Assembly: GCA_015231605.1 (NCBI GenBank)
Contig: JADGBG010000002.1
Location: forward strand, 1 to 64,000
DNA: 64,000 bases
Direction: 5' to 3'
From: Alphaproteobacteria bacterium
GTDB lineage: Bacteria > Pseudomonadota > Alphaproteobacteria > Rhodospirillales > Magnetovibrionaceae
The position numbers were made by a program, and so were the translations under genes. Below the pieces are notes generated by a model. The model was not told where the DNA came from. It worked only from the letters and a program-made list of their open reading frames with translations, and made no database searches. Shown piece after piece: positions 14,423 to 57,958 of this stretch (within the stretch, counting starts at the first letter, position 1; each line of letters starts with the position of its first letter).

Positions 14423-15091
14423 TTACTTCGGCAGGGTCTTGGTGTATTCCCAAATGTCGATGGCGACATCCGCCGGCAGGGCCGACATGCCCGGCATGTC
14501 CACGCCCGGCTTGCTGAAGCGGATGCGGTGCAGCGCGCGATCCGGCAGTTCGTTCACCACCGCGCCGACCGGCGGCATGTCGGTGATCTTCTTGCCGTCC
14601 TTGCCGTGGCAGACCGCGCAGATGGTTTCGAAATACCCCTGCCCCTTGGCCGCGTCGCCCTTGGCGCCCGCAACGTCGATCAGGCCCTTGGACACGAACA
14701 GGCCCAGCGATTCGAAGTCGGTCTGGTTGAAGATGGCGTCGGTGTACTTGTGGGTGTCGTTCTTGAGGATCGCGATCACGTCCGCCGGAGACTTGCCCGA
14801 CGCGCCCATGATGCCCTTGACGCCCACGTCGCCCGTGTAGCTGTAGCCATGGCAGTTGACGCAGCGCCAAGTCTTCTTGCCGGTCTGCCCCGCCGCCTCC
14901 GGCATGGCCGGGTGGGTGTCGCCAGGCACGTCGCCTTCGGTGATCTTGTAGTACCAGTCGTACAGCAGCCCGCCGCGTTGCAGCTTGCCTTCATCCGTGA
15001 GCGCCTGGGCCGAGGACGCCATGGCCGCGACCCCGATCGCGGCGCCGAGGCCGATGGCGATGGTCTTCGAAATGGATTTGTGACGTATCAT
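14423..15091 (-). CDS. Periplasmic diheme cytochrome c
   Basis: This 222-residue protein has a signal peptide (cleavage near SSAQA, 26-30) and two heme c sites: CVNCH at 77-81 and CAVCH at 158-162. Methionines that could be distal ligands are present (for example in VDMPGMSAL near 197-205). Each half looks like a class I cytochrome domain, the second with CAVCHGKDGKK. Such proteins carry electrons in the periplasm. Its place between a second diheme cytochrome and a cupredoxin, downstream of nirS and nirT, suggests a link in the chain from quinol to NirS. It is not a plain NirM (cytochrome c551), which has a single heme. Confidence 0.85.
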   Translation of the reverse strand: MIRHKSISKTIAIGLGAAIGVAAMASSAQALTDEGKLQRGGLLYDWYYKITEGDVPGDTHPAMPEAAGQTGKKTWRCVNCHGYSYTGDVGVKGIMGASGKSPADVIAILKNDTHKYTDAIFNQTDFESLGLFVSKGLIDVAGAKGDAAKGQGYFETICAVCHGKDGKKITDMPPVGAVVNELPDRALHRIRFSKPGVDMPGMSALPADVAIDIWEYTKTLPK

Positions 15092-15127
15092 GGCAGTACT
15101 TTCCTCTGAGATGGATCAAGGGTTTTG

Positions 15128-16048
15128 TTATTTGCACCAAGCCCCCTGCTCGACCCAACGCATCAACAGCAACGTGTTGGGATGGTCGTTCGGGGAGCCC
15201 GGATCGACACCCGGGGGCATGCGGTTCTTGGTCAACCGCTGATACAGGGGGCTGTCCTCGGCGTTGAACGGGATCACCACCGGAACGCCGGGCTTGCCAA
15301 CCTTGCCGCGCGTCTTGGAAAACGCCCCCGTCATGATGGCCTCATAAGAGGTCAAATTCAACTCGTTAAAGCTCGGCGGATCGCGGAACGACTTGTGGCA
15401 TTCCACGCACGCGGTTTCCGCGCCGAACGCATTGGGATCGGTAAACAGCGGCAGAACGGTCTTGGCGAAATCCTCGTCGTTCTTCGCCCCGGCGTTGATC
15501 CAGTCCTTGATCTTGAGAATCGCGTCCGAATCCACCGGTTCGAAAAACGGCACGCCCAAAGGCATGCGGTTGTTGCGCACCATCCGCACCAAAAGACTGG
15601 CGTGCGGATCGCCGGCCTGGATGATCGGCCGGGCCGGTTTTTCCGTAGCCCCGCGCAAGATGCCCTCGCACGTGGACAGATCCAATCCCCGATAGCTTTT
15701 CGCCGGGTCGTTGGAACTGTGACAAACGATGCACGCGGGCCCTTCGCCGAACGCGTTGGGCGTGCGCATGAGGGTCGAGATGTAATCGTAGGAAATCGGA
15801 ATGTCGCGTTGCAGGACCAGGGCGTCGATCACCGCGTTGTCGCCGTGGATGTTCAACTTGCCGAGTTTCATGTCCAGATACATCTGGTGGGTGATGGACC
15901 CGGCGGGCGCGCCGTCACCGGCATCCTGCGCCCAGGCGTTCGCGCTGCTCCACGCGAGGCCCAAAACCGCGCAACACACCGCCGCGAAGGACGCCTTCAA
16001 CAGGCTTCGGCCCTGGATTCTGCGGCGCGGGCGCGGCATCGGCGTCAT
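15128..16048 (-). CDS. Periplasmic diheme cytochrome c with internal repeat
   Basis: This 306-residue protein has a signal sequence ending near ANAWAQ (36-41) and heme sites CIVCH (106-110) and CVECH (214-218). The regions around them repeat: RTPNAFGEGPACIVCH...LDLSTCEGILRG and TDPNAFGAETACVECH...LNLTSYEAIMTG, each followed by an R(M/L)..NRMP element (about 155-163 and near 280). The gene arose by duplication of one heme module. RMP methionines in each copy are good candidates for distal ligands. It starts inside the stop codon of the NirT gene (ATGA), so quinol dehydrogenase and this cytochrome are translationally coupled. Confidence 0.85.
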   Translation of the reverse strand: MTPMPRPRRRIQGRSLLKASFAAVCCAVLGLAWSSANAWAQDAGDGAPAGSITHQMYLDMKLGKLNIHGDNAVIDALVLQRDIPISYDYISTLMRTPNAFGEGPACIVCHSSNDPAKSYRGLDLSTCEGILRGATEKPARPIIQAGDPHASLLVRMVRNNRMPLGVPFFEPVDSDAILKIKDWINAGAKNDEDFAKTVLPLFTDPNAFGAETACVECHKSFRDPPSFNELNLTSYEAIMTGAFSKTRGKVGKPGVPVVIPFNAEDSPLYQRLTKNRMPPGVDPGSPNDHPNTLLLMRWVEQGAWCK

Positions 16049-16707
16049 TCCTCCTCCTTGAGGAATTTATCCACGGACATGCTGGATTTCGGAGCCGGGG
16101 CCGCTTTTTCCTTGGGCTTCACGTCGTCTTCCAGGTCTTCCAGTTCCTTCAGGTATTCGGCCGGGAGCTTGTGCGCGATGCCCTTGTGGCATTCGATGCA
16201 GGTTTTGCCGTCTTCCGAGGCCTTCTGCATGGTTTCCTTGGAGCGGCGGCGCTGCTTGTCCCAGTGCATGGCGCCATAATCATGGCAATTGCGGCATTCG
16301 TGGGAATCGTTGCCCTCCATCTCCGCCCAAACATTTTTGGCCAAGCGGTATCGGTTTTCCTCGAATTTTTCAGGGGTGTCGATGGTGCCGAGAACCTTGT
16401 GCAGGACTTCGTTGCTCGCCTTGATCTTGCGGATCAGCTTGGGTCCCCATTCCTTCGGCACGTGGCAATCGGAACAGATGGCGCGCACGCCCGACGGGTT
16501 GGAATAGTGGACGCTCTGCTTGTACTCCTGATAGACCTTCATTTCCATTTCATGGCACGACACGCAAAATTGCAGCGTGTTCGTGTACTCCATGAAGGTG
16601 TTGAAGCCTCCCCAGAAGATGATGCCCGCGAAGCCGCCGACGATGAAGATCGATCCAAGGCTCCAACGCGCCGTCGGCGACCAGAAGAATTTCCACAAGC
16701 CCTTCAT
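16045..16707 (-). CDS. nirT: NapC/NirT-family tetraheme quinol dehydrogenase
   Basis: This 220-residue protein has one N-terminal membrane anchor (about 15-38) and four heme c sites: CVSCH (48-52), CSDCH (78-82), CRNCH (138-142) and CIECH (170-174). This is the NapC/NirT layout, including the CHEMEMKVYQEYKQSVHY stretch of the quinol site. It takes electrons from membrane quinol and passes them to periplasmic carriers. A charged Lys/Glu-rich tail of about 35 residues is longer than in NapC. It sits between nirS and a coupled diheme cytochrome, which supports NirT over NapC; no nap genes are seen. Confidence 0.9.
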   Translation of the reverse strand: MKGLWKFFWSPTARWSLGSIFIVGGFAGIIFWGGFNTFMEYTNTLQFCVSCHEMEMKVYQEYKQSVHYSNPSGVRAICSDCHVPKEWGPKLIRKIKASNEVLHKVLGTIDTPEKFEENRYRLAKNVWAEMEGNDSHECRNCHDYGAMHWDKQRRRSKETMQKASEDGKTCIECHKGIAHKLPAEYLKELEDLEDDVKPKEKAAPAPKSSMSVDKFLKEEE

Positions 16708-16790
16708 GTGCGTCTCGCCCCACTTAATCGAGAAAGCCTAAAACGAATACTTTTTTTTGCAAATGAATTGGTCGGTTGCTTTTCAAGACT

Positions 16791-16820
16791 TGGGGGAAGC
16801 GGCTGACACCGCTTCCCCCA
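16791..16820 (-). terminator. Strong hairpin after nirS
   Basis: An inverted repeat lies 15 bases beyond the nirS stop: GGGGGAAGCGG and CCGCTTCCCCC around a six-base loop, extended by one T-A pair. No U-run follows on the nirS strand, so it may be a transcript-stabilising or processing hairpin between nirS and nirT as much as a terminator. Either would make nirS mRNA more abundant than the downstream cytochrome genes. Confidence 0.55.
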
Positions 16821-16834
16821 GACTTGAGCCTATA

Positions 16835-18445
16835 TCAGGTGATATGCTTCTTGCGGTTCCAGACGTTGAATTTGCCGGTCGGCGTTTCAAGATTCTTGAT
16901 ACGCGCCTTCTCTTCCAAGGTCTTGGAGTCGTAGACCACGATTTCACCCTTGAGCCAGTCGGCCTTGCCGCCCTTCGCCCACACGGACACCCAGATTTCG
17001 CTGCCGTCCTTGTTGAACTCGGAGTGCGTGGCGACCGCCTTGTCCTGCGTCGTGACGCGGATGGTCTTCACGATCTGCCGGGTCTTCTTGTCCAGCACCT
17101 TGATGCTCTGCTGGATTTCCGGATCCGGATGCAGGGTCTGGTCGGCGATCACGTACGGCGAGTCGGGATGGGTCCGGATGAACAGGCCCGGCCCGTCGGT
17201 CTTGACCGTGTAGCACATCTTCCAGGCTTGGTCGGCGCGCTTCTCGGGATCGTTGCCCCACACGGCGATCTTGCCTTCGCCGAGGTGAACCGTGCCGCCC
17301 ACCGGACCGCACTTGTCGTCGTGCCAGTTGGCGCCCGGTCCCGGGTGCGGCTTCACGCCGGTTTCCAGCATGCCCGAGAGCTTGCGGGTGACGGAGTCGA
17401 GGAACACCATCTTGTTGCTGGCGTTCGCCGCGATCTGGAAGTAGCGGTGCGTTTCGTCGAAGAACCCGTCATGCAGGAACTTCGCGTTGTCGACCATTTC
17501 GATGCGCAGGTTGTCGAGGTCGGAATAATCGACCTGCCAAAGCTGGCCCAGTTCCTTGACGGCGACGATCCAGGTCGGCGCCTTCGGCGTGTTGTAGATG
17601 GCGGCGACGCGGGCTTCTTCCACGTAGTTGCCGTCGATGTCCACGCCACGGGTGGAGACGACTTTCAGCGGCTCCATGGTCACGGCGTCGAGGATCACGA
17701 AGTGCGGCGGCCAGTAACCGCCACCGATCACGTACTTGTCCTTCCATTCGCCGTAATGAGACACGGCGACGTCACGGGCGTCATACGCGACCTGGGTTTC
17801 GGCGACCAGCTGCGGCGGATCCATCCACAGGTCGATCTTGGTCATCTTGCCGTCGCGGCCCTGGGTGTACCAGAAGCGGCCGTCGGAAGATTCCTTGGTC
17901 ACGTGCACGGCGTAGCCGGTGTTGACCTTGGACAGGACTTCCTTGGTGTCGCCGTCGATGATGGCCATCTTGCCGGCGTCGCGCAGAATGACGACGAAGA
18001 AGTTTTCCCAATTGCGGCCGTGCATCGGCTTGGTCGGGTAGTCTTCCGGCTTGACGAAGGTCTTCCAGCGCTGCTTCATCATTTCCAGCGACATTTCAGG
18101 CGGCTTCGGCGGCGTCATCTGGATGTAGGTCGCCAGCTTCGCGATCTGCTCCTTGTTGAAGGTGTCGTCGAAATTGTTCATGCCGCCTTCGGTGCCGAGC
18201 GTGATGATTTTTTCGAGGCGCGCCTGCCCCAACTTCATCATGTTTTCCGGCTCCAGGTTCTTACCCGTCGCACCTTTGCGCAGAACACCATGGCAACCAG
18301 CGCACCGCTGGAAATACATGGTCTTGGCGTCTTCGAAATCTTCCTTGGAAAGCGTCGGCTCGGCCGCGCTCGCAGTGACGGAAGACATCAAAAGCGCACC
18401 CGCCGCCACTCCCATGGCCGATAGGGCAAATGCAAACTTTCTCAT
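16835..18445 (-). CDS. nirS: Cytochrome cd1 nitrite reductase
   Basis: This 536-residue protein has a signal peptide (about 1-28), an N-terminal heme c domain with CAGCH (48-52), and an eight-bladed heme d1 propeller. Conserved d1-domain stretches include GYAVHVTKESSDGRF, GGGYWPPHFVILD and the two catalytic-His regions VKPHPGPGANW and GTVHLGEG. It reduces nitrite to NO in the periplasm, the defining step of denitrification. An AAGGGAG ribosome-binding site lies 8 bases before the ATG. A perfect FNR/DNR-type box lies 172 bases upstream (18617-18630). The divergent nirE-nirN operon makes its d1 cofactor. Confidence 0.97.
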   Translation of the reverse strand: MRKFAFALSAMGVAAGALLMSSVTASAAEPTLSKEDFEDAKTMYFQRCAGCHGVLRKGATGKNLEPENMMKLGQARLEKIITLGTEGGMNNFDDTFNKEQIAKLATYIQMTPPKPPEMSLEMMKQRWKTFVKPEDYPTKPMHGRNWENFFVVILRDAGKMAIIDGDTKEVLSKVNTGYAVHVTKESSDGRFWYTQGRDGKMTKIDLWMDPPQLVAETQVAYDARDVAVSHYGEWKDKYVIGGGYWPPHFVILDAVTMEPLKVVSTRGVDIDGNYVEEARVAAIYNTPKAPTWIVAVKELGQLWQVDYSDLDNLRIEMVDNAKFLHDGFFDETHRYFQIAANASNKMVFLDSVTRKLSGMLETGVKPHPGPGANWHDDKCGPVGGTVHLGEGKIAVWGNDPEKRADQAWKMCYTVKTDGPGLFIRTHPDSPYVIADQTLHPDPEIQQSIKVLDKKTRQIVKTIRVTTQDKAVATHSEFNKDGSEIWVSVWAKGGKADWLKGEIVVYDSKTLEEKARIKNLETPTGKFNVWNRKKHIT

Positions 18446-18616
18446 GAATTTACTCCCTTAGTTTATGACTTGAACCAGTCCCGACGGGAATGGCCCCGAA
18501 ATCACTCTTCCCTCCATGCCGCGGCCCGCGTCCACAGCAACAGTGTCCGAGAGAAATTCAATGATAATTTTCCCGGATACTTGCGTGCATTCTCTCAAGC
18601 CAGGAACCACTTGAAC

Positions 18617-18630
18617 TTGATTGTTATCAA
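18617..18630 (-). promoter_or_regulatory. FNR/DNR/NNR box for nirS
   Basis: TTGAT-TGTT-ATCAA is a perfect palindromic half-site pair of the FNR/DNR consensus. Its centre (18623.5) is about 41.5 bases from a start point near 18582, with GAGAAT at the matching -10 place. Members of the CRP/FNR family bind this in response to low O2 (FNR/ANR) or NO (DNR/NNR); sequence alone does not say which one acts here. Confidence 0.85.
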
Positions 18631-18829
18631 GGCCTGCCAAAAAAAAACCACTTTTCGTGGCGAAATGGGCTGGTTTTTGCCATCAATCCCTTTAATTGAC
18701 CAAGGTGGGACGGCGGCATCGTCAGCCCTTGCGGCGTGACCGCGCCCCCGAGCGTTCCCGCGGACAAAAACCGATTCCCGACCGAACCGCCGACGTTGGC
18801 CGCGGCAGATCGCGGGATCCGGTTTTGAA

Positions 18830-18843
18830 TTGACAAAAATCAA
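18830..18843 (+). promoter_or_regulatory. FNR/DNR/NNR box for the nirE-nirN operon
   Basis: TTGAC-AAAA-ATCAA differs from a perfect palindrome at one position. Its centre at 18836.5 predicts a start near 18878, and CATTAT at 18867-18872 falls exactly where a -10 should be for a class II site. The predicted leader to the GTG at 18945 is about 67 bases. Confidence 0.8.
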
Positions 18844-18944
18844 TGCCCACCTTTCGGAAAAGCATGCATTATCTTTGGGTCTGAACAACTCCGATCTGAG
18901 TCCGGTTGCGGGCTCTCCGGACACAACGGGGAAGCGGCGGTATC

Positions 18945-19733
18945 GTGAGCATCAAGAACAGCTGCGTCTATCTCGTGGGGGGCGGACCGGGCGACCCGGA
19001 ACTGTTGACCCTCAAGGCGTTGCGCCTGATCGAACAGGCCGACGTCGTGGTTTACGACCGTCTGGTCGGCGACGCCGTTCTGGATCTGGTCCCCACCGGA
19101 ACGGCGCGGATCTACGTCGGCAAGGCGGCCGGCGACCATGCCCTGCCCCAAGATGAAATCAACGAGCTTCTCTATCGTTTGGCCCAGTCCAAGACCCACG
19201 TGGTGCGCCTCAAGGGCGGCGATCCCAACGTGTTCGGGCGCGGGGCCGAGGAAGCCGACTATCTGGAAGCGCGCGGCGTGCGCGTGGAAATGGTTCCGGG
19301 CGTGACGGCGGCGGCGGCCTGTTCGGCGGCGGCGCGCGTTCCCCTCACCTACCGTGGTTTGGCCTCGGGCGTGCGCTTCGTCACCGGCCACCGGCGCAAC
19401 GATGGGGAACTGGATCTCGATTGGCGGGGGCTCACCGACACCGACACCACCTTGGTCATCTACATGGGTCTGTCGACCCTGCCGTTGTTCAGCGCCAAGC
19501 TGATGAACGCGGGCATGGCCCCGTCCACGCCCGCGGTTCTGATCGCCAGCGGCGCGACGCCGAATCAGAAGGTCGTCAAGGCGACCCTGTCCACCCTGAC
19601 CCAACGGGCGGAGGAGACGGGCCTGGAGATGCCGGTCCTCACCATCATCGGCGAAGTCGCGTCCGTCGCCAGCGTCCGCGAAACCCCGGACGAAAACGCC
19701 CTGGACCGGAAATTGGAGAGCGGTGTTGTTTGA
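18945..19733 (+). CDS. nirE: Uroporphyrinogen-III C-methyltransferase for heme d1
   Basis: This 262-residue protein is an SAM-dependent methylase making precorrin-2. Family motifs are VGGGPGDPELLTLKA near the start, VVYDRLVG, LKGGDPNVFGRGAEE (about 92-106) and VPGVTAAAA. CobA/CysG enzymes share this fold, but being first in a complete heme d1 operon identifies it as NirE. A GTG at 18945 is preferred because the family signature begins eight residues later; a TTG at 18906 would add 13 unlike residues. The end overlaps the start of nirC by 11 bases. Confidence 0.93.
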   Translation: MSIKNSCVYLVGGGPGDPELLTLKALRLIEQADVVVYDRLVGDAVLDLVPTGTARIYVGKAAGDHALPQDEINELLYRLAQSKTHVVRLKGGDPNVFGRGAEEADYLEARGVRVEMVPGVTAAAACSAAARVPLTYRGLASGVRFVTGHRRNDGELDLDWRGLTDTDTTLVIYMGLSTLPLFSAKLMNAGMAPSTPAVLIASGATPNQKVVKATLSTLTQRAEETGLEMPVLTIIGEVASVASVRETPDENALDRKLESGVV

Positions 19734-20076
19734 TTGGTCCAGGACATCCCCGCCCCTCTTGACCCTGGCGGCTCTTCTCATCGCACCGGCGGCTTTCGCC
19801 GCCGGCGATCCGCCCGAGGAGCGCCAGAAAGTGCTTCTTTATCGCCTGATCCAGGACTGCGGCTCGTGCCACGGCATGACGCTGAAGGGCGGCCTGGGCC
19901 CGGCGCTGCTGCCGGAAACCCTCAAGGACAAGGCCGACGAAAGCCTGACCGATATCATCCTCAACGGCATCGAAGGCACACCCATGCCGCCATGGGCGTT
20001 CGAAACCTCCGCATCCGAAGCCGCATGGCTGGTGCGCGTGCTGAAAAAAGGAGCCGTCCATGACGCGACGCATTGA
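19723..20076 (+). CDS. nirC: Small monoheme cytochrome c, NirC type
   Basis: This 117-residue secreted protein has a signal peptide (to about AFAA, residue 27) and one heme site CGSCH (46-50). GTPMPPW near 89-95 supplies a Met for the distal ligand. In Pseudomonas and Paracoccus NirC/c55X is a periplasmic monoheme cytochrome from the d1 operon, proposed to serve NirF/NirN or NirS maturation. The GTG start at 19723 lies inside nirE and the end overlaps nirF by 17 bases. Confidence 0.85.
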   Translation: MLFDWSRTSPPLLTLAALLIAPAAFAAGDPPEERQKVLLYRLIQDCGSCHGMTLKGGLGPALLPETLKDKADESLTDIILNGIEGTPMPPWAFETSASEAAWLVRVLKKGAVHDATH

Positions 20077-21274
20077 CCGCCGTTCGGCCCTGAAATTCGG
20101 GCTTGCCGGCCTGGGCGCCGCCATGGCGGTCCCCGTCGCCGCCCGTGCCGAAGCCCGCCCAACGCCCCGCGCCACCGGCGATTTGGGGTTGATCATCGAA
20201 CGCGCGGTCGGACGGGTGCGCATCGTCGAAACTACCGGACGCACCGTGCTGCACACCATCGAGGGCCTGGGCGACCTGTCCCACGCCTCGGCGGTGTTTT
20301 CGCGCGACGAGCGCTTCGCCTACGTGTTCGGGCGCGACGGCGGACTTACCCAGGTCGACATGCTGGAAGGGCGCATCGTCAACCGCGTGGTGCAGGGCGG
20401 CAACTCCATCGGCGGAGCGATTTCCCAGGACGGACGTCTGGTCGCCGTGTCCAACTACAAACCGGGCGGCGTGAAGATCTTCGACGCCGACACCCTGGCG
20501 CTGGTGGCCGACATTCCGGCCGCCTACGAAGGCAGCACCGAGCAGTCCAAGACCGTCGGCCTGGTCGACGCACCGGAACAGAAATTCGTGTTCTCGCTCT
20601 ACGACGCGGGGGAAACCTGGCTGGTCGACATGAGCGACCCCGCCAAGCCCGCCGTCACCAAGTTCAAGGGCATCGGCAAGTTGCCCTACGACGGCCTGAT
20701 CACCGGCGACGGGCGCCATTACGTGGCCGGCCTGTTCGGCGAGGACGGCCTGGCGATGCTGGATCTGTGGGCGCCGGAAAACGGCGTGAAGCGCATCTTG
20801 GGAGGTTACGGCAAGGGCGACAAGCCGCTGCCGGTCTACAAGATGCCGCACCTGGAAGGTTGGGCCGAAGCCGACGGCAAACTGTTTTTGCCCGCCGTCG
20901 GCCGTCACGAAATCCTGGCGGTCGAACGCGGCAGCTGGCGCGAAGTGGGCCGCGTCAAGGCGCACAGCCAGCCGGTGTTCGTCATGGCGCGCCCGGACGG
21001 GCGGCATCTGTGGGTCAACTACGCCCACCCCGACAACGACACCATCGAGGTGATCGACGTCAAGACCCTGTCGGTCGTGAAAACCCTCAAGCCCGGCCCG
21101 GCTGTCCTGCACATGGAGTTCACGCCGCGCGGCGAACACGTGTGGGTGTCGGTACGCGATCTGGACATGGTGCTGGTCTACGACACCCGCACGTTCGAGG
21201 TGCTGGCGCGACTGCCCATGGACAAGCCCAGCGGCATCTTCTTCACCGCGCGCGCGCACCGGACGGGATTGTAG
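20060..21274 (+). CDS. nirF: Heme d1 biosynthesis dehydrogenase NirF
   Basis: This 404-residue protein has a Tat-like signal (DRRSALKFGLAGLG near 6-19, then VPVAARA), so it is probably exported folded. The rest is an eight-bladed propeller related to the NirS d1 domain but without a heme c domain: examples are VEMLEGRIVNRVV-like repeats, HNYAHPDNDTIEVIDVKT-like repeats and HMEFTPRGEHVWVS. NirF acts in late heme d1 formation on the tetrapyrrole side chains, in the periplasm. Three bases separate it from nirD. Confidence 0.93.
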   Translation: MTRRIDRRSALKFGLAGLGAAMAVPVAARAEARPTPRATGDLGLIIERAVGRVRIVETTGRTVLHTIEGLGDLSHASAVFSRDERFAYVFGRDGGLTQVDMLEGRIVNRVVQGGNSIGGAISQDGRLVAVSNYKPGGVKIFDADTLALVADIPAAYEGSTEQSKTVGLVDAPEQKFVFSLYDAGETWLVDMSDPAKPAVTKFKGIGKLPYDGLITGDGRHYVAGLFGEDGLAMLDLWAPENGVKRILGGYGKGDKPLPVYKMPHLEGWAEADGKLFLPAVGRHEILAVERGSWREVGRVKAHSQPVFVMARPDGRHLWVNYAHPDNDTIEVIDVKTLSVVKTLKPGPAVLHMEFTPRGEHVWVSVRDLDMVLVYDTRTFEVLARLPMDKPSGIFFTARAHRTGL

Positions 21275-21276
21275 GC

Positions 21277-21744
21277 ATGAGCGTCGCGGCGACCCTGTCC
21301 GATCTGGAAAAAGGACTGATCGACCAGTATCAGCGCGGCCTGCCGCTGGTGTCGCGCCCCTACGCCGCCATGGCCGAAACCCTGGGTGCGACCGAGGACG
21401 CGGTGATACAGGCGCTGGTGAACCTGCAAAAAAACGGCGTGTTGAGCCGCTTGGGCGCGGTGGTGACGCCGCACCGCGCGGGCTGGAGCACGCTGGCCGC
21501 CGTCAGCGCGCCCAAGGACCGCGTCGCCGAGGTCGCCGCCGTCATCAACGACTTTCCCACGGTGAACCACAACTACGAACGCGACCACCATTACAACATC
21601 TGGTTCGTGGTGGCGGGCTCCGATAAGGCCAGCGTCTTCGAGACGCTCCGCGCCATCGAAGGACGGACCGGGCTCAAGGTCCTCGACCTGCCCATGGAGG
21701 AAGCGTTTCACATCGATCTCGGATTCAAGGTGACATGGAGCTGA
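21277..21744 (+). CDS. nirD: Siroheme decarboxylase subunit NirD (Lrp/AsnC-like, AhbA type)
   Basis: This 155-residue protein has an N-terminal helix-turn-helix-like part and an AsnC-type ligand domain with HNYERDHHYNIWFVV (about 94-108), the AhbA/NirD/NirG signature. NirD, NirL, NirG and NirH together decarboxylate siroheme to didecarboxysiroheme. Despite the Lrp-like fold, these proteins are enzymes rather than regulators. It overlaps nirL by 10 bases. D versus G is assigned by order, as the two are of the same subtype. Confidence 0.85.
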   Translation: MSVAATLSDLEKGLIDQYQRGLPLVSRPYAAMAETLGATEDAVIQALVNLQKNGVLSRLGAVVTPHRAGWSTLAAVSAPKDRVAEVAAVINDFPTVNHNYERDHHYNIWFVVAGSDKASVFETLRAIEGRTGLKVLDLPMEEAFHIDLGFKVTWS

Positions 21745-22238
21745 CGGACCGCGACTACAAGCTGTTGGAGGCGTTGGAGGACGGCATCCCCTTCACGCCC
21801 GAGCCCTATGTCGTGCTCGGCCGCCACGCCGGCATGGGCGAAGCGGAAGTCCTCGCCACCCTCGAACGCCTGTGCACGGGCGGCGTGATCAACCGCCTGG
21901 GCCTGGTCGTGCATCACCGCGAACTGGGCTACACCGCCAACGGCATGGTGGTGTGGGACATTCCCGACGCCGAGGTCGCCCGTGTGGCGGAACGTCTGAC
22001 CGACGAGCCGGTGGTGACGCTGTGCTACCGCCGCCCGCGCCGTCTGCCGGACTGGCCGTACAATCTGTTTTGCATGGTCCACGGGCGCGAGGAAGCGGAC
22101 GTGCGCGCCTCCCTGGCGGACATGGTCGAGCGCCTGGGCCTTAACGCCTACCCCCACGACATCCTGTTCAGCAGCCGCCGGTTCAAGCAATGCGGCGCCC
22201 GCTACGCGCAACGGCGCAAGGTGGAAAGCATCGCATGA
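21735..22238 (+). CDS. nirL: Siroheme decarboxylase subunit NirL (AhbB type)
   Basis: This 167-residue protein has the AhbB/NirL/NirH signature CYRRPRRLPDWPYNLFCMVHG (about 97-117), where a Tyr/His-Arg pair contacts the substrate in AhbB. It pairs with an AhbA-type subunit in siroheme decarboxylation. Its ATG lies inside nirD and its stop overlaps the nirG start. L versus H is assigned from gene order. Confidence 0.85.
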   Translation: MELTDRDYKLLEALEDGIPFTPEPYVVLGRHAGMGEAEVLATLERLCTGGVINRLGLVVHHRELGYTANGMVVWDIPDAEVARVAERLTDEPVVTLCYRRPRRLPDWPYNLFCMVHGREEADVRASLADMVERLGLNAYPHDILFSSRRFKQCGARYAQRRKVESIA

Positions 22239-22708
22239 TGGACGCCGCCGACCGCCGCATCATCAACGCCCTGCAGGGCGGCTTTCCGGTGAGCGAACGG
22301 CCGTTCCGCGATGCCGCCGTCGAATTGGGCCTCGACGAAGGGGACCTGATCCGGCGCATCGAACGGCTGCAAGCCGACGGCTATCTCAGCCGCTTCGGCC
22401 CCTTGTACGACGCCGAGAACATGGGCGGGGCGAAGACGCTCGCCGCGCTGTCCGCGCCCGAGGCCGAATTCGAGCGCGTCACCGAACAGGTCAACGCCTT
22501 CGACGCCGTGGCGCACAACTACCAACGCGCCCACGATCTCAATATGTGGTTCGTGGTGTGCTCCGACACGCCGGGCGGGGTGAAGGAAACTCTGGACGCC
22601 ATCGAAGCGGAAACCGGTCTCAAGGTCTACGACATGCCCAAGCTTGAGGAGTTTTTCATCGGCCTCAAATTCGAGCTGGATGAAAAAGACGCGGAGGACG
22701 CGGCATGA
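22235..22708 (+). CDS. nirG: Siroheme decarboxylase subunit NirG (AhbA type)
   Basis: This 157-residue protein starts at ATGATG, overlapping the nirL stop. It has the AhbA-type motif HNYQRAHDLNMWFVV (about 92-106) and ends in an acidic tail. With nirD it is the second AhbA-like gene, so all four paralogues are separate here, as in Pseudomonas, instead of partly fused as in Paracoccus. Confidence 0.84.
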   Translation: MMDAADRRIINALQGGFPVSERPFRDAAVELGLDEGDLIRRIERLQADGYLSRFGPLYDAENMGGAKTLAALSAPEAEFERVTEQVNAFDAVAHNYQRAHDLNMWFVVCSDTPGGVKETLDAIEAETGLKVYDMPKLEEFFIGLKFELDEKDAEDAA

Positions 22709-23190
22709 TCCTCGACGACACCGACCGCCAGATCGTGCGCGCGACCCAGGAAGGCCTGCCGCTGGACCCTCAGCCATACCACCGCGTGGCCGAAGCCCTG
22801 AACCTCGACCCGGCCGACGTCATGACGCGCGTTCGCCGCATGCTGGACGGCGGCGCGATCCGGCGCATCGGGGTCATTCCCAATCACTACGCGCTGGGTT
22901 ACACCTTCAACGGCATGACCGTGTGGGACGTGGACGACGCACGGGTGAGCGAACTGGGCGCCAAGGTGGGTGCGCTGGATTTCGTCAGCCACTGCTATCA
23001 CCGCCCGCGCCATCTGCCGCTGTGGCGCTACAATCTGTTCGCCATGGTCCACGGCCGATCCAAGGACGCGGTGGAACGCCAGGTCGAACGGATCGCGGAA
23101 CTGCTCGGAGACGAGGCCCACGACCACAGGATTCTCTACAGCACCCGGATCCTCAAGAAGACCGGGCTGCGCATCAAGGAAACGGGATAA
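22705..23190 (+). CDS. nirH: Siroheme decarboxylase subunit NirH (AhbB type)
   Basis: This 161-residue protein overlaps nirG by four bases (ATGA). It carries the AhbB signature CYHRPRHLPLWRYNLFAMVHG (about 95-115), closely like NirL. The start LDDTDRQIVRATQEGLPLDPQPY is the winged-helix remnant common to the family. The nirJ gene begins 4 bases after its stop. Confidence 0.85.
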   Translation: MILDDTDRQIVRATQEGLPLDPQPYHRVAEALNLDPADVMTRVRRMLDGGAIRRIGVIPNHYALGYTFNGMTVWDVDDARVSELGAKVGALDFVSHCYHRPRHLPLWRYNLFAMVHGRSKDAVERQVERIAELLGDEAHDHRILYSTRILKKTGLRIKETG

Positions 23191-23193
23191 CGC

Positions 23194-24420
23194 ATGTTCA
23201 GGGTCTCCAAATTCCTCGCCGAACTGGATGCGCCGACCCCGGTGGCCCCGCGCCGCAATCCGCCGGGCCCGGTGGTGATCTGGAACCTGGTGCGCCGCTG
23301 CAACCTGACGTGCAAGCACTGCTACTCCATTTCCGCCGACAAAGAGTTTCCCGGAGAATTGAACACGGCCCAGGTCTTTGCGGTGATGAAAGACCTGCGC
23401 GCCGCCCGCGTGCCGGTGATCATTCTTTCGGGCGGCGAGCCGCTGCTGCGCCCCGACATCTTCGACATCGCGCGCGAGGCCAAGGCGCTGGGCTTCTACA
23501 CCGCGCTGTCCACCAACGGCACGCTGATCGACGAACGGCTGGCCGACGTGATCGAGGATATCGACTTCGACTACTTGGGCATCAGCATTGACGGGCTGCG
23601 CGAAACCCACGACAAGTTCCGTCGCCAGGACGGCGCGTTCGATCTGTCGGTCAACGCCGCGCGGCTGTGCCGCGACCGGGGCATCAAGGTGGGGCTGCGC
23701 TTCACGCTGACCGGCGACAACGTCCACGATTTCCCGGCGCTTTTGCAAATGGTCGAGGACGAAGGCATCGACCGGTTCTACCTTTCGCACCTCAACTACG
23801 CCGGGCGCGGCAACCACAACCGCGCCACCGACGCGCACTTCGCCATGACGCGGGACGCCATGACGCATCTGTTCGAAACGGCGCTGGACTGGCGAAAGCG
23901 CAGCCTGGAAAAGGAAGTCACCACCGGCAACAACGACGCCGACGGGGTGTTCATGCTGCACTGGGTGCGCGAACGCTTCCCCGAACATGCCGAGCACATC
24001 CGGGGAAAATTGGTGCAATGGGGCGGCAACGCGTCGGGCGTCAACGTCGCCAACATCGACAACCTGGGCCAGGTCCATCCCGACACCATGTGGTGGCATC
24101 ACGATCTCGGCAACGTCAAGGACCGCCCGTTCGGCGACATCTGGGCGGACACCACCGATCCCCTGATGGCGGGGCTGAAACAGCACCCCCGCCCGGTCAA
24201 GGGACGCTGCGCTGCGTGCGCGCACCTCGACATCTGCGCCGGCAACACGCGCGTGCGCGCCCAACAGGTGAGCGGCGATCCGTGGCGGGAAGACCCGGGC
24301 TGCTATCTCACCGACGAAGAAATCGGCCTCACCGCCCCGGACGGGGAGCGCCTGCGCGTCACCCCGTTCTCCGCACACAAGGGCGGCCGCAAGAACAGGA
24401 GCACTGACCATGTCCGTTAA
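23194..24420 (+). CDS. nirJ: Heme d1 biosynthesis radical SAM protein NirJ
   Basis: This 408-residue protein has the radical SAM cluster CNLTCKHC (Cys36, Cys40, Cys43). A SPASM-like C-terminal Cys cluster CAACAHLDIC...GCY binds a second iron-sulfur cluster. NirJ removes the propionate side chains of didecarboxysiroheme on the way to heme d1. Other family stretches are LSGGEPLLRPDI and STNGTLIDERLAD. It overlaps nirN by 11 bases. Confidence 0.95.
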   Translation: MFRVSKFLAELDAPTPVAPRRNPPGPVVIWNLVRRCNLTCKHCYSISADKEFPGELNTAQVFAVMKDLRAARVPVIILSGGEPLLRPDIFDIAREAKALGFYTALSTNGTLIDERLADVIEDIDFDYLGISIDGLRETHDKFRRQDGAFDLSVNAARLCRDRGIKVGLRFTLTGDNVHDFPALLQMVEDEGIDRFYLSHLNYAGRGNHNRATDAHFAMTRDAMTHLFETALDWRKRSLEKEVTTGNNDADGVFMLHWVRERFPEHAEHIRGKLVQWGGNASGVNVANIDNLGQVHPDTMWWHHDLGNVKDRPFGDIWADTTDPLMAGLKQHPRPVKGRCAACAHLDICAGNTRVRAQQVSGDPWREDPGCYLTDEEIGLTAPDGERLRVTPFSAHKGGRKNRSTDHVR

Positions 24421-26002
24421 GACCTTCATCGCCGCCGTTGCAAGTTCCGTCGCATTGACCGGGGTGGCCTGGGCCATGGACGACGAACCCAAGATCGACG
24501 CCGAGGCCCTGTACCAACAGCACTGCGCCGAATGCCATGCGCCGACCCGTTTGGGCGCGCTGGGCCCCGCGCTGCTGCCCGGCGCCATCGAACGGCTCAA
24601 GCCCGGCAAGCCGACCGAGGCCGTGATCGCCAACGGCCGCGTCGCGACGCAAATGGAAGGCTTCAAGGACAAACTGAGCGCGGCCGAGATCAAGGCTTTG
24701 GCCGAATATATCTACACAGAACCGGCGGTCGAACCGAAATGGGAAGATGCCGACATCAAGGAAAGCCACACCGTGCACAAGACCATGGCCGAATTGGTCA
24801 AGGCCCCCGTGCACCGGGCCGATCCGCTCAACATCTTCACCGTCGTGGAAATGGGCGACCACCACGTCACCATCCTCAACGGCCATTCGTTCGAGCCGAT
24901 GTACCGCTTCAAGACCCACTTCGCGGTGCATGGCGGCGCGAAGTATTCGCCGGACGGCCGCTTCGTGTATCTGTCGTCCCGCGACGGCTGGATCACCAAA
25001 CACGACCTGTGGGGTCTGGAACCCGTGGCGGAAGTCCGCGCCGGCCTCAACACCCGCAACATCGCCGTGTCGTCGGACGGCAAGTGGGTGATGGTCGGCA
25101 ACTATCTGCCGCACAACGTGGTGATCCTGAATGCCGAAGACCTTTCGCTTTACCGCGTCGTGCCCACCACCGCCAACGACGGGTCCAAGACGTCGCGCGT
25201 CAGCGCCGTCTACGACGCCGAGCCGCGCCAGAGCTTCGTGGTGGCGCTCAAGGACATCAAGGAAGTCTGGGAAATGTCCTATGACCCGGACGCGGCCCCG
25301 GTGTACGGCGGCTTGATCCACAGCTACCGCAAGGGCCAGGAGGAAGCGACCGAGGTCGAGCCCCAGCCGTTCGCCCGCCGGCGCATCATGCTGGACGACT
25401 ACATGGACGACTTCTACTTCGATCCGTCCTATGCGGAAATCATGGGCGCGTCCCACGACGGCAAGGGCGGCATGGTCTACAACCTCGACGCCCGCAAGAA
25501 GGTGGCCGAACTGGATCTCGAGGGCATGCCGCACCTGGGGTCCGGCATCGTCGCCGAATACCAGGGCCACATGGTGATGGCGACACCGCACCTCAAGAAG
25601 TCCCAGGTCAGCATCATCGACATGGAAACCTGGAAGACCGTCAAGACGATCGACACCAAGGGCCCCGGTTTCTTCATGCGCGGGCACGAGAATAGCCCCT
25701 ACGCCTGGGTCGACGTGTTCTTCGGCCCCAACAAGGACCTCCTGCACGTGATCGATCTGCGCACCCTGGAAATCGTGCGCGAGATCAACCCCGCGCCGGG
25801 CAAGACCAACGCCCACGTGGAATTCACCCGCGACGGCCGCTACGCCCTGATCAGCGTCATGGAGGACCAGGACAAGGGCGGCGCGCTGGTGGTCTACGAC
25901 GCGCATACCTTCGAAGAGGTCAAGCGCATCCCCATGAACAAGCCGGTCGGCAAATACAACGTGCACAACAAGATCACCCGTTCCGCCGGGACCAGCCACT
26001 GA
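24410..26002 (+). CDS. nirN: Dihydro-heme d1 dehydrogenase NirN
   Basis: This 530-residue protein has a signal peptide (to about WAMDD), a heme c domain with CAECH (39-43) and a NirS-like d1 propeller. It differs from NirS in key blades and belongs to the NirN group by position after nirJ and by sequences such as VEMGDHHVTILNG and NTRNIAVSSDGKWVMVG. NirN performs the last step, oxidising dihydro-heme d1 to d1 in the periplasm, and hands the cofactor to NirS. It ends the recognised nir genes; a cysteine-rich gene follows after 17 bases. Confidence 0.92.
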   Translation: MSVKTFIAAVASSVALTGVAWAMDDEPKIDAEALYQQHCAECHAPTRLGALGPALLPGAIERLKPGKPTEAVIANGRVATQMEGFKDKLSAAEIKALAEYIYTEPAVEPKWEDADIKESHTVHKTMAELVKAPVHRADPLNIFTVVEMGDHHVTILNGHSFEPMYRFKTHFAVHGGAKYSPDGRFVYLSSRDGWITKHDLWGLEPVAEVRAGLNTRNIAVSSDGKWVMVGNYLPHNVVILNAEDLSLYRVVPTTANDGSKTSRVSAVYDAEPRQSFVVALKDIKEVWEMSYDPDAAPVYGGLIHSYRKGQEEATEVEPQPFARRRIMLDDYMDDFYFDPSYAEIMGASHDGKGGMVYNLDARKKVAELDLEGMPHLGSGIVAEYQGHMVMATPHLKKSQVSIIDMETWKTVKTIDTKGPGFFMRGHENSPYAWVDVFFGPNKDLLHVIDLRTLEIVREINPAPGKTNAHVEFTRDGRYALISVMEDQDKGGALVVYDAHTFEEVKRIPMNKPVGKYNVHNKITRSAGTSH

Positions 26003-54010: not shown

Positions 54011-54877
54011 TCAATAGGACGTATGTTGCGCGGCATGACGCAGCATCGGTTCGTATTCCAGCCAGCGCGACCCCGGCCCCAACTGGGAATACAAAACCAG
54101 TCCGTTGCCGTCCAGGATATGGGTGGACGGGAACTTCGGCGCGATGCGGCGGTCTTCCAGAAGCGAGCCGTCGGCCAGCGTGAACGTCTTGTCGCCAAAT
54201 CCCTTTGCACCGGAATCGTAGAATGGCATGTCGAATCCGTTCTTGCCCGCCCACGCCTTGGACACGGCGATGTCTTCGCGCACCTGCACCAGCACGAACG
54301 CGATCCGGGGATCGTTCCGCACCGCGTTGAAAAGCTGCATGACATCGGGAAATTCCAGCTTGCACGGCGGACACCACGCGGCCCAGAAATGCAGGAACAC
54401 CACCTTGCCCCGCAGTTGGTCCAGCCGCATCTCCCGACCGTCCGGGGCGGTCAGTTTCAGGGCGGGGAAGCGCTGCCCCCGCATCACGCCGAGGGGACGG
54501 GCCGCGGCGTCCCGGGCGCTGGCGTAGGGGCCGAGCCCCGCAGCCCATGCCGCCGGATCGAACACCACCGCGTCGTCGACGGCATAAGGCTGGCACGTCA
54601 AGGGCGTATGCTCGGCGCATTGTTCGCGGGCCGTGCGCAGCGCATCGTCCGCCGACGCCTGATCCGACGACCACGACCACGCCCCGCCCGGCGCGACGAC
54701 GTACGCGCGATGCATTCCGCTTTGCAAGAAACCCTGATAGCCCTGCCGACCGTCCTCGTCGACGTGGGGCAGCGCCGTTGGATCGTCCAGCCCCGCGCCC
54801 ACGGCGGCACGCCCCGCCAGAACCGTTATGAGCACGGTCCCCCAAATGGTCGGCTTCACAAGATTCCACACACCCAT
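54011..54877 (-). CDS. Secreted DUF4189-like / thioredoxin-like redoxin fusion
   Basis: Read from ATG 54877 (after GGGGGAAA) the product has 288 residues with an N-terminal signal or anchor (about 8-30). Residues about 45-110 have the repeat of A.......A...C.....C typical of DUF4189, with Cys87 and Cys95. Residues about 135-275 are a TlpA/redoxin domain with active site WCPPC (168-172). It is probably a periplasmic disulphide reductase, perhaps in cytochrome c maturation or copper handling. Its gene is divergent from the octaheme cytochrome operon, which fits such a role, but that is inference. Confidence 0.78.
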   Translation of the reverse strand: MGVWNLVKPTIWGTVLITVLAGRAAVGAGLDDPTALPHVDEDGRQGYQGFLQSGMHRAYVVAPGGAWSWSSDQASADDALRTAREQCAEHTPLTCQPYAVDDAVVFDPAAWAAGLGPYASARDAAARPLGVMRGQRFPALKLTAPDGREMRLDQLRGKVVFLHFWAAWCPPCKLEFPDVMQLFNAVRNDPRIAFVLVQVREDIAVSKAWAGKNGFDMPFYDSGAKGFGDKTFTLADGSLLEDRRIAPKFPSTHILDGNGLVLYSQLGPGSRWLEYEPMLRHAAQHTSY

Positions 54878-54973
54878 GTATTTCCCCCGGCCCGCCATAT
54901 GGCGCGGAATGATTCCAACCTTACCCGGAACTGGTAATTTATTGAAAACAAATTCGATTTAAACTCATGCAAA

Positions 54974-54987
54974 TTGACGTGGGTCAA
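54974..54987 (+). promoter_or_regulatory. FNR/DNR/NNR box for the octaheme cytochrome operon
   Basis: TTGAC-GTGG-GTCAA is a perfect palindrome of the FNR/DNR type. Its centre (54980.5) predicts a start near 55022; TAAATA at 55012-55017 is within two bases of the class II -10 position. It lies 91 bases upstream of the DUF302 start, in the gap shared with the divergent redoxin gene. Confidence 0.75.
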
Positions 54988-54992
54988 GAAAT

Positions 54993-55004
54993 CTAATATA
55001 TTAG
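54993..55004. promoter_or_regulatory. Palindrome between FNR box and -10
   Basis: CTAATATATTAG is a perfect 12-base inverted repeat, five bases after the FNR-type box and before the candidate -10. It could bind a second regulator or simply be an AT-rich spacer. Confidence 0.35.
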
Positions 55005-55077
55005 GATTAGCTAAATAATCTGCGTCACGAGTTTATTCCGTTCACTCGTGGCGTGGACGTCCCAGAAGAGGTCAGTC

Positions 55078-55614
55078 ATGTTCAAACTCATCTCAGGATT
55101 TATCGCCGGCGTGATCTTCGTCGGTGTCGTTGCTTGTCAATACGCCGGCGGCATGATGCTCAACGAATACGAAAGCCCCTTCGGGCTTGAGGAAACGGCC
55201 GCGCGCATCCAGGCAAACATCAAGGACTCGGGTTGGGCCCTGTCGGGCCTGCGCAGTCCGTCCGCGACCATCAAGGCCATGGGCTCCAACGTGCCGAACG
55301 TGCTGTTGGTCGAAGCCTGCAACGTCGACTACTCCAAGCCGTTGATCAAGGACGACGACACCCGCATTCTGTCCATTCTGATGCCGTGCACCATCACGGT
55401 CTATGAAAAGGGCGACAAGGTGTACATCGGTCTGATGAACTCGGGCCTGATGGGCCAGTTGTTCGGCGCCAAGGTCGCCGGCATCATGGAACAGGTCGCC
55501 CAGGATCAGAAGAAGTTCATCACCTTCGACCCGTCCAAGCCTGCCCCGGCGCTCATTCGCGGCGCTCCCGGCGGCGGCGGCCAGGGTGGCAAGAAAGAAC
55601 TCGGCGGCTGCTGA
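55078..55614 (+). CDS. DUF302-family secreted/anchored protein
   Basis: This 178-residue protein has an N-terminal hydrophobic segment (LISGFIAGVIFVGVVACQYAGG, about 4-25). The DUF302 part shows ETAARIQANIKDSGW, NVLLVEACNVDYSK and MPCTITVYEKGDKVYIGLMN. A Gly-rich tail ends in GGC. The start at 55078 follows AGAAGAGG. It opens an operon with an octaheme cytochrome and a cytochrome b. DUF302 proteins often sit beside redox or sulfur genes, but their role is not known. Confidence 0.85.
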   Translation: MFKLISGFIAGVIFVGVVACQYAGGMMLNEYESPFGLEETAARIQANIKDSGWALSGLRSPSATIKAMGSNVPNVLLVEACNVDYSKPLIKDDDTRILSILMPCTITVYEKGDKVYIGLMNSGLMGQLFGAKVAGIMEQVAQDQKKFITFDPSKPAPALIRGAPGGGGQGGKKELGGC

Positions 55615-55670
55615 TCGCTTTCTGAGCCCATCCCAATTCTCATGACCATCGCCAGGAGGGAGAGGTCATC

Positions 55671-57284
55671 ATGTTTTCACTGAAACAAGCGGCGCGCTGG
55701 GCCGTGGCGGGTATGGCGGGATACGCCCTTCTCGCCGCCGGCGCCGCCGTGGCGGCGACGCCCAACACCAAGACGTCCACCGCCGACCACAGCAAGTTCT
55801 CGCAGTTAAAAGGTCCGTTCCCCGACGGCCCGTCGGTGACCCGGGCGTGCCTGGATTGCCACAACGACGCCGCGTCCCAGATTCACAAGACCAAGCACTG
55901 GACCTGGGACGTCGTCAACCCGGCCACGGGGCGCAATCTCGGCAAGAAGAACATCATCAACAACTTCTGCGGGACCATTCAGTCGAACGAACCGCGCTGC
56001 ACCAGCTGCCACATCGGCTATGGCTGGAAGGACGGAAACTTCGACTTCGCCAGCAAGGAAAACGTCGACTGCGTTGTGTGTCACGACACCACCAACACAT
56101 ACCGCAAATTCCCGGTGTCGGCGGGCCACCCGCTGTACAAGCCGACGGAATGGCCGAAGGGCAGCGGGCGCATCATTCCGCCGCCCGATCTCGCCAAGAT
56201 CGCGCAGGGCGTCGGCAAGACCACCCGCAACACCTGCGGCGTGTGCCACTTCAACGGTGGCGGCGCCAACGCGGTGAAGCACGGCGATCTGGATCAGTCG
56301 CTCATCAATCCGCCCAAGTTCCTGGACGTGCACATGAGCCCCGACCGGCTGGACTTCTCGTGCTCTAGCTGCCACGGCGGCGACGCGCACGCCATCCAGG
56401 GCAGCCGCTATTCGACCATCGCCAAGGATATGAGTGGCATCGACGTGGTCGGCCGCACCGACGGCAGCCGCGCCACCTGTGAATCGTGCCACGGCACGAC
56501 CCCGCATAAGGACACGGCGAACCCCAAGCTGAACGACCACACCGACGTTTTGGCGTGCCCGACGTGCCACGTCCCCGAATTCGCCCGTGGCGGCACCGCC
56601 ACCAAGATGTGGTGGGACTGGTCCACGGCCGGCAGGCTCAACGAAAAGGGCAAGCCGCTGACGGTTCATGACGAAAAAACCGGCTATGAACTCTATAGCG
56701 GCATGAAGGGCGACTTCAAATGGGGCGAATTCGTCCAACCCGAATACCGTTGGTACAACGGCACGGTGAAATACACCTTGCTGGGCGACGAAGTGACCGG
56801 CGACCAGGTCGTCAAGATCAACACGTTCGAAGGCGGGCCCGACGATCCCGACGCCCGCATCTGGCCGTTCAAGGTCATGCGCGGCAAACAGCCCTATGAC
56901 AAGGGCAACAAGACCCTTGCCCTGGTGCACACCTTCGGCAACGACGACAGCGCCTATTGGGGCAACTACGACTGGCCCAAGGCGATCGCCGCCGGCATGA
57001 AGAGCGCCGGAAAGGACTTCAGCGGCGAATACGGCTTCGTGCAGACGGAAATGGCTTGGCCCATCACCCACATGGTGGCGCCCAAGGAAGACGCCGTGGC
57101 CTGCGTAGCCTGCCACAGCGCCGACAGCCGCCTGAAAGGCGTGCCGGGTCTCTACATCCCGGGCCTCAGCCGGTTCTGGGGTGGATGGCTGGACATGCTG
57201 TTCTGGCTGGCCGCGCTGGGTTCGCTCGCGGGCGTGCTCGGACACGGCGCGTTGCGCTACTACATGAGCAAGAAGGAGGGATAG
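55671..57284 (+). CDS. Octaheme c-type cytochrome (tetrathionate reductase/OTR family)
   Basis: This 537-residue protein has eight CXXCH motifs, at 60, 110, 134, 189, 231, 270, 296 and 478. The first is followed by IHKTKHWTW, the signature of the OTR family. An N-terminal signal (about 1-29) and a C-terminal membrane helix (about 506-526) anchor it, facing the periplasm. Shewanella OTR reduces tetrathionate, nitrite and hydroxylamine in vitro; the true substrate here is open. The coupled cytochrome b gene (5 bases on) would supply electrons from quinol. A GGAGGGAGAGG site precedes the ATG. Confidence 0.92.
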   Translation: MFSLKQAARWAVAGMAGYALLAAGAAVAATPNTKTSTADHSKFSQLKGPFPDGPSVTRACLDCHNDAASQIHKTKHWTWDVVNPATGRNLGKKNIINNFCGTIQSNEPRCTSCHIGYGWKDGNFDFASKENVDCVVCHDTTNTYRKFPVSAGHPLYKPTEWPKGSGRIIPPPDLAKIAQGVGKTTRNTCGVCHFNGGGANAVKHGDLDQSLINPPKFLDVHMSPDRLDFSCSSCHGGDAHAIQGSRYSTIAKDMSGIDVVGRTDGSRATCESCHGTTPHKDTANPKLNDHTDVLACPTCHVPEFARGGTATKMWWDWSTAGRLNEKGKPLTVHDEKTGYELYSGMKGDFKWGEFVQPEYRWYNGTVKYTLLGDEVTGDQVVKINTFEGGPDDPDARIWPFKVMRGKQPYDKGNKTLALVHTFGNDDSAYWGNYDWPKAIAAGMKSAGKDFSGEYGFVQTEMAWPITHMVAPKEDAVACVACHSADSRLKGVPGLYIPGLSRFWGGWLDMLFWLAALGSLAGVLGHGALRYYMSKKEG

Positions 57285-57288
57285 TGTC

Positions 57289-57891
57289 ATGGTCGAACGC
57301 ATCTATATCTTCAAGCGTTTCGAACGCTTCTGGCACTGGACCCAGGCGGCGCTGATCATCACCATGTTGATCACCGGCTTCGAAATCCACGGCAGCTATC
57401 ACTGGCTGGGTTTCGAAACCGCGCAGGAAACGCACACCACGGCGGCCTGGCTGCTGATCGGTCTGTGGGTGTTCGCCATCTTCTGGCACTTCACCACCGG
57501 GGAATGGAAGCAGTACATCCCGACCACCGACAAGCTGGTGGCCATGGCGAAGTACTATCTGACGGGCATCTTCAGCCACGCCGAACATCCGTTCCGCCAG
57601 ACCCAACTGCGCAAGCACAACCCGCTGCAGCGCCTGGCCTACCTGTTCGTCAAGCTGATGATCAACCCGTTGATCTGGATCAGCGGCCTGCTCTACCTCT
57701 ACTACCCGAGCTGGGATGCGTGGGGTTTGAGCAGCCTAGGTCTGACGCTCGGCATCGTGGCGTTCTTCCACCTGGTGGCGGCGTTCCTGATGCTGATCTT
57801 CTTCATCGTGCACGTCTACTTCGCCACGACCGGCCATACCCCCATGGCCCACATCAAGGCGATGATCACCGGTTACGAGGAAGTCGAATGA
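57289..57891 (+). CDS. Diheme cytochrome b (thiosulfate reductase/b561-type) subunit
   Basis: This 200-residue protein has four membrane helices with His residues placed for two b hemes: FERFWHWTQAAL, ETHTTAAWLLIGLWVFAIFWHF (about 45-68), HLVAAFLMLIFFIVHVYF (about 163-180). This matches the PhsC/thiosulfate reductase cytochrome b and formate dehydrogenase gamma family. As the quinol-linked membrane partner of the octaheme cytochrome it completes an electron-transfer pair. A bidirectional terminator lies 27 bases after the stop. Confidence 0.9.
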   Translation: MVERIYIFKRFERFWHWTQAALIITMLITGFEIHGSYHWLGFETAQETHTTAAWLLIGLWVFAIFWHFTTGEWKQYIPTTDKLVAMAKYYLTGIFSHAEHPFRQTQLRKHNPLQRLAYLFVKLMINPLIWISGLLYLYYPSWDAWGLSSLGLTLGIVAFFHLVAAFLMLIFFIVHVYFATTGHTPMAHIKAMITGYEEVE

Positions 57892-57917: not shown

Positions 57918-57948
57918 AAAAGACCCGGCTCAGGCCGGGTCTTTTTTT
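57918..57948. terminator. Bidirectional intrinsic terminator
   Basis: AAAAGACCCGGC-TCAG-GCCGGGTCTTTT forms a perfect 12-pair stem with a four-base loop, and the T-run extends to 57948. It ends the cytochrome b operon on the plus strand. On the minus strand it also serves the histidine kinase ending at 57959. Confidence 0.92.
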
Positions 57949-57958
57949 GGGGGACGCG

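Follow-up and report, generated by a model that had tools for sequence, protein, structure and literature searches.

A DUF302–octaheme cytochrome c–cytochrome b operon with a predicted SoxR/BigR-type sulfur-regulon operator and an FNR/DNR-type box

We propose, with moderate confidence, that an operon encoding a DUF302 protein, an octaheme cytochrome c of the OTR family and a membrane cytochrome b is a sulfur oxidoreductase module, anchored in the membrane and linked to quinone, that belongs to a sulfur-oxidation regulon and most likely acts on sulfur compounds when oxygen is scarce. The operon lies in a stretch of 64,000 nucleotides from an alphaproteobacterial genome, termed the window below. 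The physiological role of OTR proteins is unsettled, as sulfur and nitrogen compounds are both reduced in vitro. A preliminary description of this DNA had found a nitrogen role attractive and had noted a palindrome in front of the operon; its observation of operon and palindrome is confirmed, and its interpretation is partly supported.

The three open reading frames are real genes according to their profile scores (Table 1), and the OTR gene also by its match to PDB 1sp3, which spans nearly the whole mature protein. The DUF302 gene probably starts at the ATG at 55078, and not at the GTG at 55048. The assignment of the octaheme protein to the OTR family holds, with a TIGR04315 score above the cut-off and eight CXXCH motifs, and the protein also has a signal peptide and, by hydropathy, a C-terminal transmembrane anchor at about residues 510-528. 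The cytochrome b gene follows the OTR gene in nearly all of the 112 OTR loci that we fetched, making the pair near universal, and DUF302 heads the operon in about 28 of these loci, from alpha-, beta- and gammaproteobacteria. The structure downstream of the operon is a candidate intrinsic terminator, of a kind no more frequent than in shuffled sequences (3 vs 2.5).

Table 1 Features of the operon and its surroundings in the window, and predicted operator targets in the source genome.
Feature	Position	Strand	Evidence or remark
TlpA/ResA-like periplasmic thioredoxin (WAAWCPPC), divergent	54011..54898	-	PF08534/PF00578
FNR/DNR-type palindrome TTGACGTGGGTCAA	54974..54987	+	left half doubles as -35 (TTGACG)
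Alternative -10, TATATT	54997..55002		17 nt after TTGACG half as -35
Predicted SoxR/BigR-type (ArsR family) operator, ATTAG-GATTAG-CTAAA	55000..55015	.	de novo motif, held-out test
Candidate -10, TAAATA	55012..55017	+	sequence, 24 nt after FNR box
DUF302 protein	55078..55614	+	PF03625, 39.5 bits (cut-off 23)
OTR-family octaheme cytochrome c	55671..57284	+	TIGR04315, 629.9 bits (cut-off 375); PDB 1sp3, E 1e-116
Cytochrome b561-type quinone-linked membrane partner	57289..57891	+	PF01292, 76.9 bits
Candidate intrinsic terminator after operon	57927..57950	+	stem and T-run
Operator target: fccAB			FCSD domains, FccB
Operator target: aprMBA			AprB, TIGR02060
Operator target: dsrAB			TIGR02064/66
Operator target: sulfur-globule protein (SGP)	G000:C60:20758-21204 (L141)		PF17228; exact ATTAG-N6-CTAAT upstream
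Operator target: SoxR/BigR-like arsR			beside soxB (TIGR04486)
Operator target: second OTR operon	contig C181		with divergent rhodanese, soxY, soxZ
Operator target: DUF302-OTR operon of the window	55000-55015		

The palindrome, TTGACGTGGGTCAA, is the sole zero-mismatch TTGAC-N4-GTCAA of the window, and TAAATA lies downstream of it, both as first described. Because the perfect pattern TTGAYNNNNRTCAA occurs 24 times in the genome, against 2 for the reversed control, and precedes nirS (twice, at 18617 and 18830), nosZ, ccoN and a nap-type ferredoxin gene, an FNR/DNR box at this position is credible, and the likeness to the nirS promoter drawn in the preliminary description stands; the genes behind these boxes, including nosZ and ccoN, were named by eye. 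With TAAATA as the -10, the box would be centred at about -43.5. Its TTGACG half can also be read as a -35 paired with TATATT, so the activation geometry is not certain. A perfect FNR box occurs at 7 of 26 DUF302-OTR promoters; it is absent in close relatives (loci L002, L003, L006 and L033-L035) and present in several betaproteobacterial loci, and we predict that FNR input was added in some lineages. The window also holds, at 14423-26002, a nirS-type cluster with cytochromes, nirE, nirF, regulator-like and nirJ genes, and the perfect boxes at 18617 and 18830 sit within it.

Overlapping the proposed -10 is a second element, overlooked in the preliminary description. Alignment of the upstream regions first hinted at a second repeat, and in an unbiased de novo palindrome search ATTAG-N6-CTAAT came out on top: 12 of 26 promoters have it, against 0.30 expected, and in shuffled sequences no pattern exceeded 7 loci. 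The refined matrix, ATTAG/ATAAG-N6-CTWAT, finds a site upstream of 24 of the 26 DUF302-OTR operons. These belong to alpha-, beta- and gammaproteobacteria and include the close relatives without the FNR box; none of 69 neighbouring promoters of the same loci scored equally. Trained on beta- and gammaproteobacterial sites only, the matrix recovers all seven held-out alphaproteobacterial sites (p <=0.013), among them the window site, which has one mismatch, at p 0.003. A palindrome at 54993-55004, CTAATATATTAG, was also considered as an operator and rejected, the aligned family motif lying 7 nt later.

In the source genome, 19 operator sites were found at one mismatch or fewer. This total is not above the control (21 for the exact reversed pattern), and it is the placement of the sites, not their raw count, that is significant: seven of the 19 precede sulfur genes, each backed by an HMM match or by its gene context (Table 1). 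Twelve have no clear sulfur gene downstream, and an eighth site precedes a YgaP-TM gene. A control pattern, GATTA-N6-TAATC, has 12 sites in the genome, and the single sulfur-gene promoter among them is an overlapping site in the window; this pattern differs from the exact reversed one, for which the count alone is available. A complete genome of the same family (G017) has sites at the arsR/soxS region, dsrA, YeeE-like transporters and a YgaP-TM gene, and its DUF302-OTR operon has two tandem sites; most of these targets were identified by eye, while HMM searches confirmed SoxB and DsrA. Two operator-like sites of the source genome, one of them exact, lie 48 bases apart before flagellar-type genes (G000:C6:1618 and 1666, locus L136), and no sulfur gene was found near this pair.

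The matrix, which was built without any sox promoter, was then applied to the sox regions of Paracoccus pantotrophus and P. denitrificans (19.7 kb), where it ranked soxS-soxV first and soxW-soxX second (scores of 18.3 and 10.9 in P. pantotrophus and of 19.5 and 14.3 in P. denitrificans; shuffled maxima 2.6 and 2.4). Published work describes promoters under SoxR control in the soxS-soxV interval (PMC5748708); the letters of a SoxR consensus were not found in the open literature. From the occurrence of one operator at DUF302-OTR operons, at sulfur genes and at Paracoccus soxS-soxV, we predict that the operon is SoxR-controlled, and by this predicted operator it very probably belongs to a SoxR/BigR sulfur regulon. 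The ArsR protein of the source genome has a Cys in an ILC motif and a C-terminal Cys, i.e. it is of the sensing type, and HlyU, SqrR and BigR are among the solved structures closest to it; SoxR of Hyphomicrobium denitrificans senses sulfane sulfur via such a Cys pair (PMC10451225). The analysis also yields an operator model for an ArsR-type sulfur repressor in dsr/apr-type oxidisers.

Many of the fetched OTR records bear the names of sulfur-oxidising genera (Thiobacillus, Sulfuricella, Sulfurisoma, Chlorobium), and soxY, soxZ, rhodanese or YeeE genes accompany OTR at loci that lack DUF302. A relative of the TlpA-like thioredoxin adjoins 21 of 28 DUF302-OTR loci; of the OTR loci without DUF302, 32 have 2.5 kb or more of sequence on each side, and none of these has such a neighbour. 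In the OTR tree, the DUF302 loci fall in three clades, one each in alpha-, beta- and gammaproteobacteria, and the rows without DUF302 inside these clades (L007, L037, L081 and L102) stop at the edge of a contig or close to it. Grouping of the DUF302-linked OTRs in one clade was rejected: the tree requires six changes, and three clades remain when the contig-edge rows are set aside. An operator kept across three proteobacterial classes and the pairing of OTR with putative carriers, DUF302 or SoxYZ, point to sulfur, and the regulatory and neighbourhood evidence together make a sulfur function likely.

What DUF302 contributes is less certain. The protein has an N-terminal transmembrane anchor, a core with two conserved Cys and a Gly-rich tail ending in Cys; in the AF2 model (mean pLDDT 75.6) these appear as an N-terminal helix, a DUF302 core whose fold matches 1q9u (TM-score 0.83 by target) and a disordered tail (pLDDT <50). 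All 27 aligned OTR-linked DUF302 proteins have the Gly-rich stretch and the invariant terminal Cys, whereas a paralogue from the same genome and a DUF302 protein from a Ruegeria sox cluster keep the core Cys pair and have no tail. By these sequence characters, the OTR-linked proteins form a subfamily defined by anchor, tail and invariant Cys. The possibility that the protein is a lipoprotein (VVAC, residues 17-20) was discarded, this Cys not being conserved in homologues. The SoxY of the second OTR operon ends in GGGGCG; homology of the DUF302 protein to SoxY was not detected, Pfam matching DUF302 alone. From the likeness of the tails, and from the parallel with SoxS, the protein that maintains SoxYZ in an active state (PMC10451225), we tentatively suggest that DUF302 could be a sulfur carrier, which is the weakest step of our argument. 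OTR-linked DUF302 proteins might then be a new class of membrane-anchored periplasmic sulfur carriers that replace SoxYZ and feed an octaheme cytochrome-quinone complex, a proposal that we put forward as speculative. It provides a functional hypothesis for one DUF302 branch; if it is true, a function would be assigned to DUF302 for the first time, and OTR would have to be seen as a Sox/SoxR network enzyme with carrier-bound sulfur as its substrate.

A simpler arrangement, which we consider rather unlikely, is that OTR and cytochrome b are a plain quinone-linked tetrathionate reductase or thiosulfate dehydrogenase, with DUF302 an assembly or structural partner whose arm never bears sulfur. The activity in the name of the OTR family and the sulfur regulon would fit this arrangement, as would the core Cys pair also being present in tail-less paralogues, but the Gly-rich tail with its terminal Cys does not vary among the three proteobacterial clades and, as far as compared, is specific to OTR-linked proteins, and a thioredoxin-type neighbour is common to DUF302 loci.

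Less likely again is the nitrogen branch of the preliminary description, in which an FNR/DNR-controlled OTR-cytochrome b pair reduces nitrite and/or hydroxylamine beside NirS. Boxes of the same type precede other denitrification genes, and the equivalents of the active-site Lys and Cys, an assignment that we take in part from the 1sp3 structure, are invariant in all 106 OTR sequences. This active site, with its Lys ligand and nearby Cys, is in part described in a review (PMC12285233), and the OTR of Shewanella oneidensis reduces both compounds in vitro (PMC4484225). Among 297 genomes of the order, whose neighbouring members are not independent, OTR associates with cytochrome d1 proteins (OR 4.7), which would suit a partner of NirS, and, with the same dependence among neighbours, with SoxB or DsrA (OR 3.7); as OTR tracks both, co-occurrence does not decide between nitrogen and sulfur. 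Nevertheless, 14 OTR genomes have SoxB or DsrA and neither cytochrome d1 nor NirK (the opposite holds for nine), the nearest relatives of the window operon have no FNR box, and sulfur genes adjoin OTR loci. Genome G002, for example, combines DUF302-OTR with dsrA and soxB, and gave no match for cytochrome d1 or NirK. The conserved operator is that of the sulfur-oxidation regulon, and the nitrogen branch is not supported as the main role. A nitrite or hydroxylamine side activity may still accompany a sulfur function.

YgaP-TM genes belong to BigR-type detoxification operons, and the operator also precedes such genes in two genomes; however, dissimilatory genes (dsr, apr, fcc, sox) make up most of the named targets, so that sulfide or persulfide detoxification or signalling, with excess sulfane sulfur removed when nitrite meets sulfide and no energy conserved, is highly improbable.

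For the sulfur oxidoreductase module that we favour, the following sequence of events can be envisaged. A SoxR/BigR-type ArsR repressor would occupy 55000-55015 and be released when persulfide or sulfane sulfur reacts with its Cys pair, and an FNR/DNR-type protein at 54974-54987 would add an anoxia input in the source genome. OTR, held by its C-terminal helix, would exchange electrons with quinone via cytochrome b561, in either direction. DUF302, a membrane-anchored protein whose core would lie in the periplasm, might bear the sulfur substrate on the arm that ends in Cys, a role parallel to that of SoxY in the other type of OTR operon, and the neighbouring thioredoxin might keep the DUF302 thiols reduced. 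One point against this module is that an OTR gene of Magnetospirillum gryphiswaldense showed no differential transcription with oxygen or nitrogen source, in a study that gave no results on sulfur (PMC12774639). The substrate may be thiosulfate, tetrathionate or carrier-bound sulfane sulfur.

Several known systems resemble parts of this module. The OTR of S. oneidensis shares with that of the window the eight CXXCH motifs, the invariant Lys and Cys equivalents and the match given in Table 1, which covers almost all of the mature protein, but was studied as a periplasmic protein receiving electrons from STC (PMC4484225), whereas the window OTR has a C-terminal anchor, cytochrome b and DUF302 partners and a sulfur-regulon operator. 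Lucinid symbionts have OTR with SoxY-S3/SoxZ (PMC11237559), i.e. beside SoxYZ carriers as in the second operon of the source genome; the window operon has DUF302 in their place. The SoxR, sHdrR, BigR and SqrR repressors (PMC10451225, PMC12423496) have in common with the predicted regulator the ArsR family, the Cys pair, operators at sulfur-oxidation genes and a link between sulfur control and denitrification, loss of SoxR or sHdrR altering denitrification transcripts (PMC12423496). OTR was not found in the searched passages of these two papers, and the regulon predicted here adds dsr, apr, fcc and SGP genes. In Acidithiobacillia sox clusters, DUF302 likewise adjoins thiosulfate genes, there between soxA and soxB, and a role in polythionate chemistry has been suggested (PMC5037610); no octaheme cytochrome is mentioned, and the likeness drawn here is one of gene neighbourhood. 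A literature search found no paper on DUF302 together with an octaheme cytochrome.

Some OTR reading frames from Anaerolineae (L097-L100 and L106) are much longer, at about 720-780 amino acids, and several OTR loci of this group have an ArsR-type gene nearby; 15 CXXCH motifs occur in five OTR sequences of the set. Finally, the source genome has almost the same cytochrome b gene in both OTR operons (57289-57891 and L139:4109-4711): 600 of 603 bases agree, while the flanks show no similarity and the OTR proteins share 57% identity. Gene conversion or recent exchange may account for this near-identical pair, as may an assembly effect.
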